A DNA stretch of 39,483 bases from Chloroflexota bacterium (GTDB lineage: Bacteria; Chloroflexota; Anaerolineae; J102). The notes beneath the pieces are model-generated. The model made no database searches and was not told where the DNA came from. It saw only the letters and a list, made by a program, of their open reading frames with translations. This document shows positions 12,331 to 16,227 of this stretch, piece by piece; the first letter of the stretch is position 1, and each line of letters opens with the position of its first letter. Both the position numbers and the translations under genes were made by a program. The stretch is from contig JAADII010000082.1 of assembly GCA_013151415.1 (NCBI GenBank), positions 1-39,483 on the forward strand, written 5' to 3'.

Positions 12331-12359
12331 TTGACAAAAAGCTCATCTGGGTTTACACT
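12331..12359 (+). promoter_or_regulatory. strong sigma70-type promoter
   Basis: TTGACA (12331-12336), exact 17-base spacer, TACACT (12354-12359). It has no open reading frame close downstream; it drives the structured RNA at about 12366-12596. Confidence 0.8.
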
Positions 12360-12365
12360 GACCCT

Positions 12366-12596
12366 ACTATGAGTTCTTACGCGACAAGCATTATTGCGTT
12401 CACCTGCTCCTGTATCGGGCGGGCGTAGCCGGTCCGCAATTCCGGCTGCCCCGCAAGATGGAGCATTGCGGTGAGTCGCGTGAGAACCTATAACTCGATA
12501 TCGGTTTGGCAGGTTGATGGCAGGCATGAAAACCTGTCATTCACCCATAAGTTTGACCCGTTCGGCTCACCGCACTTTTCGGTGAGCCGTTTCTTT
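12366..12596 (+). ncRNA. candidate structured RNA (riboswitch-like leader or small RNA)
   Basis: It lies between a near-consensus promoter and an intrinsic terminator. I can pair 12373-12385 with 12475-12487 (13 bp, one G-U), 12400-12404 with 12470-12474, 12406-12410 with 12460-12464, 12419-12423 with 12450-12454, and 12427-12432 with 12442-12447. These nest into one long irregular hairpin. Downstream, two copies of TGGCAGG (12507-12513 and 12518-12524) compete for AACCTGTCA at 12531-12539, which gives mutually exclusive stems. The hairpin tip with GCTGCCCCGCAA faintly recalls the cobalamin riboswitch core, but the B12 box is not clear; a 6S-like RNA is another option. The family is not identified. 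Confidence 0.55.
12563..12596 (+). terminator. rho-independent terminator of the structured RNA
   Basis: The perfect 10-bp stem CGGCTCACCG (12563-12572) pairs with 12580-12589, with a 7-base loop and TTTCTTT after it. It ends transcription before the sulfur-carrier gene unless read-through is regulated. Confidence 0.85.
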
Positions 12597-12605
12597 ATGC
12601 TGGAT

Positions 12606-12759
12606 ATCGGTCATTGGTTAGTGGATACTGGATATTGGATATTCAAAGCCACAAAAACACATCTCAATCACCTAACACCCAATATCCAATAACTTGATAT
12701 CCAATAACCAATAACCTAATATCCAATATCGAATATCCAATATCGAACATCCAATATCC
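12606..12759. repeat. AT-rich heptamer repeat tract in inverted arrangement
   Basis: This fills the rest of the 475-base non-coding stretch 12312-12786. The left part has GGATACT-GGATATT-GGATATT; the right part has six in-phase heptamers from 12718 to 12759 (AATATCC or AATATCG, one AACATCC), with looser copies before. The two sides are complementary: 12631-12644 pairs perfectly with 12731-12744. The tract separates the RNA terminator from the carrier gene. Confidence 0.75.
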
Positions 12760-12786
12760 ACCCCCCAACCACACAGAGAAGAACTC

Positions 12787-13071
12787 ATGAGCACTATCTA
12801 CATCCCCACCCCTCTCCGTCGTCTGACCAATAAGCAATCGCGAGTCCAGGTCGAGGCCGCGACCGTGCGCGAAGCGTTGCAGGCGCTGGATGAAGCGTTT
12901 CCGGGCATCGGCGAGCGTCTGCTCGATGCAAACGGTGAAGTCAAACGTTTTATCAATGTATTCGTCAACGACGACAACATCCACACCCTGCAAGGTCTCG
13001 ACACGCCCCTAAACCCAAACGACAAGATATCCATTGTCCCGGCCATGGCCGGGGGAACGGTCAAGGCATAG
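12787..13071 (+). CDS. MoaD/ThiS-type sulfur carrier protein with C-terminal extension
   Basis: The 94-residue beta-grasp protein has REALQALDEAFPGIGERLLDANGEVKRFINVFVNDDNI and ends KISIVPAMAGGTVKA. The Gly-Gly normally forms the exact C terminus, where an E1 enzyme makes an adenylate and then a thiocarboxylate. Here four residues (TVKA) follow it, so trimming would be needed first, as in carriers processed by JAMM/Mec-type proteases. Adjacent rhodanese-E1, sulfurtransferase and cysteine synthase genes point to a CysO-like sulfur donor for cysteine rather than molybdopterin or thiamine synthesis. No protease gene is in the window. The gap to the next gene is 16 bases. Confidence 0.85.
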   Translation: MSTIYIPTPLRRLTNKQSRVQVEAATVREALQALDEAFPGIGERLLDANGEVKRFINVFVNDDNIHTLQGLDTPLNPNDKISIVPAMAGGTVKA

Positions 13072-13087
13072 GGAGAAATGAGGCATC

Positions 13088-14284
13088 ATGACACGAATCA
13101 CGCGTGACCAACTCCTGGCTCGCCTGCGCCAAGAAATTCCGGAAACGACGCCATGGGAAGTGGCCGACTGGCTACGCGACGGCAAGGAGATCACCCTTAT
13201 CGACATCCGCGAGCACGAAGAATGGGTGCAAGGCCATGTGCCGGGCGCGCGGCACGTGAGTCGCGGCTTTCTGGAGCTGCAAATCGAGATGGTGCAGCCC
13301 GACCGCGAAGCGCCCATTGTGCTCTATTGCGCCGGCGGCGTGCGCAGCCTGCTGGCCGCTCACAACTTGCAGGAGCTGGGCTACACCAATGTCTATTCCA
13401 TGGCCGGCGGATTCAGCGCCTGGATCAACGCCGGTTTCGAGTTCGAAGAGCCGCGCTTCCTCACACCCGCTCAACGCGAACGGTATGCCCGTCATTTGAT
13501 CATGCCCGACATTGGCGAAGCAGGACAGATAAAACTACTGGACAGCAAAGTCTTGTTGATCGGCGCGGGCGGTTTGGGCTCGCCGGCCGCGCTCTATTTA
13601 GCCGCAGCCGGCGTGGGAACCCTGGGCATCGTGGATTTCGACCGCGTGGATCGCACCAACTTGCAACGCCAGATTCTGCACAGCGAAAGCGAAATCGGCG
13701 AGCTCAAGGTCGAATCGGCCATTCGCCGCCTCCACGATCTCAATTCCGACATCGAGATCAAAGGCCATCCTGTGGCGCTGAGCAGCGAAAACGCGCTGGA
13801 CATCCTGCGCGAATACGACATCGTGCTCAACGGCTCGGACAATTTCCCCACCCGCTATCTGGTCAACGACGCCTGTCACATGCTGGGCATTCCCCTGGTG
13901 GATGCGTCCATTTTCATGTTCGAAGGCCAGGTCACGGTTTACCAGCCCGCGAATCCGGCCAAGGGCATCGAGGGCGGCCCTTGCTACCGCTGCCTTTACC
14001 CCGACCCGCCTCCGCCCGGCGAGGTGCCCAGTTGTGCGGAGGCCGGCGTGTTCGGCGTGCTGCCCGGCATCATCGGCGCGATTCAGGCCGTGGAAGCCAT
14101 CAAGCTCATCGTGGGCATCGGCGAGCCTCTGGTGGGTCGCTTGCTCATGTATGACGCGCTCGACCAGAGTTTCCGCACCCTGAACGTGCAGCGCGACCCC
14201 AACTGCCCTCTGTGCGGCGACAACCCCACCGTCACCGAACTTATCGATTATGAACAATTTTGCGGATTACCGCCGCGATCTTGA
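13088..14284 (+). CDS. rhodanese-ThiF/MoeB E1-like sulfur-carrier adenylyltransferase fusion
   Basis: The 398-residue protein has an N-terminal rhodanese domain (about residues 15-118; active-site loop YCAGGVRS with Cys81). A ThiF/MoeB domain (about 125-395) follows, with nucleotide loop IGAGGLGSP (159-166), NLQRQILH, NGSDNFPTRYLVND, zinc pairs CYRC (299, 302) and CPLC (373, 376), and the catalytic-cysteine region PSCAEAGVFGVLPG (Cys316). It activates the Gly-Gly tail of the carrier with ATP and can load sulfur from its own rhodanese domain. In the familiar MoeZ/MOCS3 proteins the rhodanese domain is at the C terminus; here the order is reversed. Confidence 0.92.
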   Translation: MTRITRDQLLARLRQEIPETTPWEVADWLRDGKEITLIDIREHEEWVQGHVPGARHVSRGFLELQIEMVQPDREAPIVLYCAGGVRSLLAAHNLQELGYTNVYSMAGGFSAWINAGFEFEEPRFLTPAQRERYARHLIMPDIGEAGQIKLLDSKVLLIGAGGLGSPAALYLAAAGVGTLGIVDFDRVDRTNLQRQILHSESEIGELKVESAIRRLHDLNSDIEIKGHPVALSSENALDILREYDIVLNGSDNFPTRYLVNDACHMLGIPLVDASIFMFEGQVTVYQPANPAKGIEGGPCYRCLYPDPPPPGEVPSCAEAGVFGVLPGIIGAIQAVEAIKLIVGIGEPLVGRLLMYDALDQSFRTLNVQRDPNCPLCGDNPTVTELIDYEQFCGLPPRS

Positions 14285-14407: not shown

Positions 14408-15268
14408 ATGAGTGATAAATTCAGCGAGTATGCTCATCCCGAAGTTCTGGTCACCACCGACTGGGTGGCCGAGCATCTCAACGACCCAAACGTGCGCATC
14501 GTGGAAAGCGACGAGGATGTGCTGCTCTACGACACAGGCCACATTCCCAACGCCATCAAGATCGATTGGATTTCCGATCTGAACGACCCGGTGACGCGCG
14601 ATTACATCGGCCCCCGAGAGTTCGAGGCCCTGTGCAGCAAGCACGGCATCAGCAACGACACGTTCGTCGTGTTCTACGGCGACAAGAACAACTGGTGGGC
14701 CTGCTATGCGTTCTGGGTCTTCCAGCTTTTCGGCCACACCAAAGCCGCGGTCATGGATGGCGGCCGGCAAAAATGGGTCGAGGAGGGACGGGAGATGACG
14801 CGCGAGGTTCCCAGCTTCCCGCCGGCCGAATATCACGCGCCGGATCGCCAGGATTACAAGATTCGCGCGTTCCGCGACCAGGTGTTGGCGCATCAGGCGG
14901 CCGGTTTGCCGCTCATCGATGTGCGTTCGCCGCAGGAATATTCGGGCGAGTTGCTGCACATGCCCGATTATCCGCAGGAAGGCACGCTGCGCGGCGGTCA
15001 CATCAAGGGCGCGCGCAATGTGCCCTGGGCGCGGGCCGCGAACCCGGACGGCACGTTCAAATCGGTGGAGGAGCTCAAAGCCATCTACGAAGAAGAAGCC
15101 GGTCTCAGCCCCGACCAAAACATCATCGCCTATTGCCGCATTGGCGAGCGCAGCAGCCACACCTGGTTCGTGCTCACCTACCTGCTCGGTTATCCCACCG
15201 TGCGCAATTACGACGGTTCGTGGACCGAGTGGGGCAATCTCGTTGGCATGCCTATTGAGAAAGGATAA
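14408..15268 (+). CDS. thiosulfate sulfurtransferase, tandem rhodanese
   Basis: The 286-residue protein has two rhodanese domains. The N-terminal one is inactive, because the loop reads [10 protein letters not shown] with Gly in place of Cys. The C-terminal one has the active loop [10 protein letters not shown] with Cys243. It transfers sulfane sulfur from thiosulfate or 3-mercaptopyruvate to acceptors. It probably supplies sulfur to the adjacent rhodanese-E1 fusion or to cysteine synthesis, like the CysA-type sulfurtransferases of actinobacteria. TGGAGG lies 10 bases before the ATG. The 123-base gap upstream holds imperfect ATCCGTG repeats (14331-14346) and a 13-base element also found before sodA. 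Confidence 0.93.
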
Positions 15269-15270
15269 TC

Positions 15271-16227
15271 ATGGCCACCTCAAGCGCGCGCATTTACAAA
15301 CCCGACCCCATGCGTTGGCGACGGCCTCATCGGCCGCCCATTTTGCAGCAAATCGGCAACACGCCCTTGCTGAAGTTGGAACGCGTCACCGAAGGGTTGC
15401 CTGCGGGCGTCGAGGTCTACGCGAAAGCGGAATGGTTCAATCCGGGCGGTTCGGTTAAGGACCGCCCGGCCCTTCGCATGATCGAGCAGGCCGAGCTGCG
15501 CGGCGACCTGACGCCGGACAAGATCATCATCGACGCGACCAGCGGCAATACGGGCATCGGCTACGCGCTGGTGGGCGCGGCCAAGGGCTATCGCGTCATG
15601 TTGGTCATGCCCGAAAACGTGACCGAAGAGCGCAAACAACTGGCCCGAGCCTACGGCGCCGAGCTGGTGTTCAGCGACCCGCTGGACGCGGCCGATGGCG
15701 CCATCCGCCTGGTGCGCGAGATGGTGGCCGAGCATCCCGACCGCTATTTCTATCCCGACCAGTACAACAATCCCGACAACTGGCTGGCCCATTATTATGG
15801 AACCGGGCCGGAGATATGGAAACAAACCCAAGGCCGCATCACCCACTTCGTCACCGGCATCGGCACCAGCGGCACATTCATGGGCGTAAGCCGACGCCTG
15901 AAAGAACTCAAACCCGATATCCACGTCATCACCGTGGAGCCGGCCGACGAGCTGCAAATCATCGAGGGCCTCAAGCACATGGAGACCTCCATCGTGCCCG
16001 GCATCTATGATCCTGCGGTGAAAGAGGCCGATGTGCGGGTGGAGGCCGAAGCCGCATGGGACATGGCGCGGCGATTGGTGCGAGAAGAGGGGCTGTTCGT
16101 GGGTTTCAGCGCGGCCGCGAATGTGCACGCGGCCCTGGAAGTGGCCAAGACTTTGGACAAGGGCGTCATCGTCACGGTGCTTCCCGACAGCGGCGCGAAA
16201 TATGTGAGCCTGGGGTTATACGATTGA
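15271..16227 (+). CDS. cysM: PLP-dependent cysteine synthase (CysK/CysM family)
   Basis: The 318-residue protein is fold-type II: IGNTPLLKLERV, NPGGSVKDRPA with PLP lysine Lys63, the substrate loop TSGNTGIGYALVGAA, the phosphate loop GIGTSGTFMG, and VLPDSGAKYVS. It replaces the acetyl or phosphoryl group of activated serine with sulfur. It sits two bases after the sulfurtransferase gene and in a cluster with the sulfur carrier and E1 enzyme. The likely sulfur source is therefore carrier thiocarboxylate, as with CysM/CysO in Mycobacterium, though free sulfide cannot be excluded. AAGGAT precedes the ATG. The symbol rests on context as well as family. Confidence 0.87.
   Translation: MATSSARIYKPDPMRWRRPHRPPILQQIGNTPLLKLERVTEGLPAGVEVYAKAEWFNPGGSVKDRPALRMIEQAELRGDLTPDKIIIDATSGNTGIGYALVGAAKGYRVMLVMPENVTEERKQLARAYGAELVFSDPLDAADGAIRLVREMVAEHPDRYFYPDQYNNPDNWLAHYYGTGPEIWKQTQGRITHFVTGIGTSGTFMGVSRRLKELKPDIHVITVEPADELQIIEGLKHMETSIVPGIYDPAVKEADVRVEAEAAWDMARRLVREEGLFVGFSAAANVHAALEVAKTLDKGVIVTVLPDSGAKYVSLGLYD

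Follow-up and report, generated by a model that had tools for sequence, protein, structure and literature searches.

An element in the 5' leader of a moaD-thiF-TST-cysM operon of a Chloroflexota bacterium (Anaerolineae; J102) is very probably a ribosome-mediated, cysteine-responsive transcription attenuator. The window analyzed here is a stretch of 39,483 nt from contig JAADII010000082.1 of assembly GCA_013151415.1, and the element occupies a few hundred nucleotides of it (Table 1). Computation revealed a conserved ORF with cysteine codons, alternative pairings with compensatory change, a terminator, and the target genes. Judged by these sequence features, the family is new, its mechanism a known one. 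From them we infer translation of the leader, ribosome stalling, and the direction of control, the last from the design of the element and its biosynthetic targets. A preliminary description had taken the region for an unassigned structured RNA. Its view of a switch-like, structured cis leader that has its own promoter and terminator and is tied to cysteine genes holds, but a free-standing RNA does not, since a leader-peptide attenuator fits better.

Table 1. Positions of the attenuator features and of the downstream genes in the window
Feature	Position	Strand	Basis or remark
Sigma-70-type promoter, TTGACA-17-TACACT	12331-12359	+	Pattern; recurs in relatives
Leader ORF, MSSYATSIIAFTCSCIGRA, 19 codons, predicted leaderless	12369-12428	+	Conserved in relatives
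Segment 1, 5' strand (ACGCGAC, TTCACC, GCTCCTGT) pairing with segment 2, anti-antiterminator	12379-12413	+
Regulatory codons UGC UCC UGU (Cys-Ser-Cys)	12405-12413	+	Part of segment 1
Hairpin H, 12419-12432 with 12442-12454	12419-12454	+	Spans leader stop codon
Segment 2 (TGCGGTGAGTCGCGT; core GCGGTGAGTCGC, 12468-12479)	12467-12481	+	Pairs with segment 1 or 3
Variable linker between segments 2 and 3	12482-12562	+	Contains TGGCAGG repeats
Segment 3, terminator 5' arm (CGGCTCACCG) and adjoining loop bases	12563-12574	+	Segment 2 complement
Segment 4, terminator 3' arm CGGTGAGCCG and T-rich tail	12580-12599	+
moaD/ThiS-family sulfur carrier, first controlled gene	12787-13071	+	PF02597 1.3e-15; SAMP1 NF041918
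Rhodanese-ThiF/MoeB adenylyltransferase/sulfurtransferase	13088-14284	+	PF00899, PF00581
Two-domain rhodanese, TST/3-mercaptopyruvate sulfurtransferase-like	14408-15268	+	PF00581, two stretches
cysM/cysK-type cysteine synthase	15271-16227	+	PF00291; TIGR01136 above cut-off

A short leader ORF with two constant cysteine codons

The region had been described as lacking a sensible ORF. This was wrong: an ATG located 9 nt downstream of the -10 box opens a leader ORF whose ATG position and length of exactly 19 codons are kept in 17/17 members of the window's family, with TAG or TAA as the stop (TAG, TAA, or TGA across the class). In each of the aligned relatives, the ATG is followed by an in-frame stop, e.g., MKHYATPAFSFTCSCTKRA, MYQQATPQFAFTCSCIGRA, and MKFDASPRFAFSCSCIGRA (TAA). 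The leader is conserved as a peptide, and third codon positions are more variable than first and second positions in the 17 family members (0.33 versus 0.23). Three leader peptides of 20 to 26 amino acids from relatives matched 0 Pfam/NCBIfam families.

All true elements specify Cys-X-Cys. Among 51 non-redundant elements, the first cysteine codon is UGC or UGU, and the codon between the two cysteines alternates among UCC, UCG, UUG, AUC, and GUC, i.e., Ser, Leu, Ile, or Val. The second is UGU in all elements examined, so something besides the encoded amino acid may limit which codon is used. The model and motif searches favored cysteine codons, so their frequency and constancy are partly selected for, but the searches did not favor the changing middle codon, the extra cysteine codons, or the stop positions. 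Additional cysteine codons upstream amount to 25/408 in frame versus 13 and 12 in the other frames, and the eight codons preceding Cys-X-Cys contain 0/408 in-frame stops versus 21 and 2 in the other frames (51 elements in both cases). The leader stop falls at +12 (22 elements), +21 (20), or +9 (1) in 43/51 non-redundant elements; the other 8 have no stop at any of these positions. In the late-stop leaders (L252, L253, L254, L255, L257, and a few others), the frame crosses hairpin H and segment 2 and ends at +93 to +138.

In all 18 promoters that match at least 9/12, 17 of which belong to the window's family, the distance from the -10 end to the ATG is 6 to 9 nt. This spacing leaves no room for a Shine-Dalgarno site, and the predicted mRNA is therefore leaderless or almost so; judged from the promoter position, transcription presumably starts on the leader ATG or a few bases away from it. 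Promoters of other families are mostly unrecognizable by consensus, so leaderlessness is supported for the window's family only.

The end of the leader peptide bears on a different reading, i.e., nascent-peptide arrest, in which a TCSCxxRA peptide would sense a signal (e.g., redox or sulfide) in the ribosome tunnel instead of the Cys-tRNA level. An RA or RV ending directly before the stop is conserved in many members, and the Arg codon is constant. However, many members end in CSC plus L, R, or P without RA, the residues ahead of the cysteine codons vary, and the letters specifying RA and the stop are explained by the overlapping hairpin H. We regard peptide arrest as unlikely.

Mutually exclusive pairings and their covariation

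The leader RNA folds at -108.9 kcal/mol, compared with -72.2 +/- 5.0 kcal/mol in shuffles (z -7.3; 0/200 shuffles as good), and the irregular hairpin of about 115 nt noted in the preliminary description indeed emerged as the MFE structure. RNAalifold paired the cysteine codons themselves with segment 2, and TTCACC, just 5' of these codons, can pair with the same segment 2 letters in a form close to the window's MFE structure. The 1:2 helix together with hairpin H accumulated 27 cells changed on both sides versus 8.3 in shuffles (0/500) and a covariation score of 0.216 versus 0.111 (0/500). Both sides changed in 5/6 outer 1:2 pairs, and the inner pairs over the cysteine codons barely vary in the window's family; hence, the outer 1:2 pairs and H account for the covariation.

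The antiterminator helix 2:3 is paired in 92.5% of cells across 36 sequences, falling to 30 to 45% when slid, and shows 26 both-sides changes versus 10.1 in shuffles (0/500; sequences within a family are related, so this and the above shuffle counts overstate independence). Compensatory examples are GGTGAG:CTCACC, GATGAA:TTCATC, and GTGAGTTG:CAACTCAC. Segment 2 pairs more strongly with its own partner than with that of another lineage in 710/890 comparisons, a cross-family contrast that guards in part against the effect of kinship. The helix can form in 36/36 elements, as a rule 57 to 65 nt past the cysteine codons. The duplex energy is -23.0 kcal/mol for the window's element; among the elements outside the derivation set, 36/37 fall below -14 kcal/mol. 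Thus, the conserved, covarying stems in relatives that had been proposed as a check on the structure were found. The mutually exclusive 1:2, 2:3, and 3:4 pairings are all present, as documented by covariation for the first two and by the terminator for the third.

Hairpin H begins 5 nt past the second cysteine codon and lies at the leading edge of a ribosome sitting on the cysteine codons and over the stop codon. It is the most letter-conserved element class-wide, with a nearly invariant GCGGG/CCCGC and a covarying upper stem, and was the only structure recovered by RNAalifold on the class-wide alignment A3, where the 1:2 helix was probably lost through a register change between families. The linker that follows segment 2 is conserved in neither sequence nor length. 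Two TGGCAGG copies (12507-12513 and 12518-12524) and their partner CCTGTCA (12533-12539) do exist within it, as reported earlier, but their role as a switch competing for strand 12531-12539 finds no support in this non-conserved stretch. The strand that switches is segment 2, with the leader ORF and the terminator 5' arm as its alternative partners.

The strong, conserved structure of this 5' leader and the nearly invariant letters of H and segment 2 would also suit a metabolite-binding riboswitch (for cysteine, O-acetylserine, or a sulfur or cobalamin compound) with a terminator platform and an incidental ORF. This reading is very unlikely, given a conserved ORF of fixed length whose start and stop are in frame and in which the codon flanked by the two constant cysteine codons changes. 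Moreover, the outer stem and the linker vary freely, and outside H there is no conserved aptamer-like junction. A search of the window against Rfam 15 at the gathering threshold returned 0 matches; the faint cobalamin-riboswitch likeness described before was thus not upheld, since no family, cobalamin included, reached the threshold. A permissive Rfam scan yielded weak chance matches only, to eukaryotic or archaeal families, and the miRNA-like ones turned out to be a heptamer repeat array downstream of the terminator, at 12600-12730.

Promoter, terminator, and operon

On their own, neither the promoter nor the terminator pattern exceeds chance in 2.4 kb (3 versus 1.7 and 3 versus 2.6 expected, respectively). 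Both, as previously described for the window, were nonetheless found again at the same place in relatives: TTGACA or TTGACG with 16 to 17 nt spacing in nearly all members of the window's own family, and a terminator with a U-tract in nearly all elements. In the window, the pattern search placed a 10-bp intrinsic terminator at 12563-12589, followed by TTTCTTTATG, about 188 nt ahead of moaD. The Pfam/NCBIfam matches of the four genes bear out the sulfur-carrier/cysteine cluster suspected downstream of the element.

The stretch between the terminator and moaD (12601-12760) is occupied by a degenerate array of heptamer period (TGGATAT/ATATCCA) in two inverted halves; 67 matches across its own genome identify it as a genome-wide intergenic repeat family. 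Similar-looking short-word repeats built from different words (GAAGCTGGAAGCTA, CCAGTATCCAGC, TACGCAGTACGCA) occur in other genomes (L077, L081, L088, and L059), either within the same leader, sometimes between segments 2 and 3, or next to it.

Distribution and downstream genes

Matches at an E value of 1e-5 or better, mainly over 12394-12454, were obtained in 14/19 same-family genomes. A covariance model built from 14 family members (R1) reached other families of the class, and a broader model (R2), used for the class and phylum samples, matched 76/396 sampled Anaerolineae genomes. By named records, the element occurs in Caldilineales, Caldilineaceae, and other Anaerolineae. The phylum sample of 400 genomes provided no credible match beyond Anaerolineae; five matches outside the class (L213, L215, L216, L217, and L219) lack the Cys-X-Cys motif and were rejected. 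L078, L080, L083, L090, L258, and L260, without a real leader or an adjoining cysteine gene, were likewise discarded as chance matches or coding sequence.

True elements are located about 140 to 600 nt upstream of moaD-thiF-(TST)-cysM, cysM/cysK, TST, or metA. In a first set, the next gene specifies MoaD, CysM/CysK, or TST in 34/36 loci with a Cys-X-Cys leader, the remaining two being a contig end and a locus ahead of metA (PF04204), whereas a cysteine/sulfur gene comes next in 0/4 model matches without such a leader. A later set placed 35/40 matches ahead of cysteine/sulfur genes, with two contig ends, one unclear, and two false. A DNA motif scan of 84,980 species genomes gave the same contrast: among the matches listed, cysteine/sulfur genes lie 220 to 370 nt downstream in 20/23 loci with a leader ORF, i.e., a stop at +12 or +21, versus 2/57 of the listed loci without one, and these two are Chloroflexota elements whose leader stop is further downstream. 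One genome carries the attenuator a second time, in L069, ahead of metA (homoserine O-succinyltransferase, PF04204; 2997-4097). Therefore, entry to methionine synthesis may likewise be under the control of this sensor.

This arrangement also makes it extremely unlikely that the element, although bracketed by a promoter and a terminator, is a trans-acting small RNA of about 230 nt, since it nearly always lies just ahead of cysteine/sulfur genes and in their orientation, is present as a single copy in the window's own genome, and recurs in relatives as extra copies ahead of other sulfur genes. Side roles of a stable terminated leader are nevertheless conceivable.

Proposed mechanism and ribosome-block folding

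In the attenuator that we propose, a ribosome would translate the 19-codon ORF, which ends in FTCSCIGRA and a stop. When Cys-tRNA is scarce, the ribosome would stall at UGC/UGU and cover segment 1, leaving segment 2 free to pair with segment 3; with this antiterminator formed, no terminator would arise and the cysteine genes would be transcribed. When Cys-tRNA is ample, the ribosome would reach the stop and depart, the 1:2 helix would re-form, and segment 3 would pair with segment 4, so that transcription would end at about 12595. In the eight late-stop leaders, the translating ribosome would run over segment 2, with the same sign of control.

Folding with a ribosome-sized block is in part consistent with this scheme. 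For RNA folded up to segment 3, as in an early transcript, the mean probability of 2:3 is 0.34 unblocked versus 0.56 with the A site on the first cysteine codon, and it is about 0.8 when the block lies 2 to 5 codons upstream of that codon. The window itself flips in this early-transcript model only with the block 2 to 5 codons before the first cysteine codon. At equilibrium, with the whole terminator included, the terminator continues to prevail when a ribosome occupies the cysteine codons (mean probability from 0.88 to 0.78), and in the window its probability stays at 0.96 with or without the block, i.e., the switch is not reproduced. The switch must thus act during transcription, as in known attenuators. 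As a more tentative refinement, it is possible that, throughout the class, the mRNA is leaderless and starts with the sensing ORF, that the cysteine codons are themselves a strand of the switching helix, and that H is a built-in brake or pause site giving a sensor of just two cysteine codons sufficient sensitivity.

Relation to known attenuators

The trp, his, and ilv leaders are the classical ribosome-mediated transcription attenuators. The Anaerolineae element shares with them a leader ORF containing codons for the amino acid that the operon makes, four segments that can pair alternatively as 1:2, 2:3, or 3:4, and an intrinsic terminator before biosynthetic genes. It differs in that cysteine replaces Trp, His, or Ile-Val and in an apparently leaderless ORF without a Shine-Dalgarno site. 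Unlike trp, it nests a further conserved hairpin, H, between segments 1 and 2 and separates segments 2 and 3 by a linker of about 85 nt.

Two cysteine systems come closer. The uORFC-8-2 motif, i.e., the Rhodobacterales cysS leader, is a computational candidate that likewise combines conserved cysteine codons in the first stem of a uORF, an intrinsic terminator, and presumed Cys-tRNA sensing (PMC8632094). Its tandem Cys-Cys usually falls at codons 14-15, and it occurs only upstream of cysS in Alphaproteobacteria (PMC8632094). In contrast, the Anaerolineae element carries Cys-X-Cys at codons 13/15 rather than tandem cysteine codons upstream of cysS, precedes moaD, cysM, TST, or metA in Chloroflexota, and possesses the extra hairpin H. 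Mycobacteria, in turn, have leaderless polycysteine uORFs (Shell et al. 2015, PMC4633059), whose action is described as translation attenuation (Canestrari et al. 2020, as cited in PMC13236596); their cys operons were found to lack conserved terminator hairpins in the upstream region (PMC1262725). Both the mycobacterial and the Anaerolineae systems feature a short leaderless ORF with cysteine codons near the stop, ahead of cysteine/sulfur genes; in our case, leaderlessness follows from the -10 to ATG spacing, i.e., from predicted 5' ends. The lack of an intrinsic terminator and the translation-level control of the mycobacterial type are not what we found here, where a U-tract intrinsic terminator is conserved along with a covarying antiterminator.

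Translation attenuation as in mycobacteria, with the ribosome governing access to the first structural gene and the hairpin not acting as a terminator, would account for this shared design of a leaderless Cys-rich uORF ahead of cysteine genes (PMC4633059). We nonetheless deem it highly improbable, because the hairpin is followed by a U-tract, has a 5' arm complementary to and covarying with segment 2, and is located well before the structural gene.

According to a survey from 2010, Proteobacteria and Actinobacteria were at that time the only groups known to have leader-peptide systems; the survey itself added Firmicutes (PMC2965389). Our data indicate leader-peptide attenuation in Chloroflexota, for which the literature searched contains no report. 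They also describe a transcription attenuator that is specific for cysteine and well supported; the earlier cysteine cases that we found are translation-level (mycobacteria) or a computational candidate (Rhodobacterales cysS). The covariance model of the element can be used for annotation. The predicted regulon comprises moaD-thiF-cysM, cysK, TST, and metA in the mostly uncultured Anaerolineae and would tie the sulfur-carrier route to cysteine supply.
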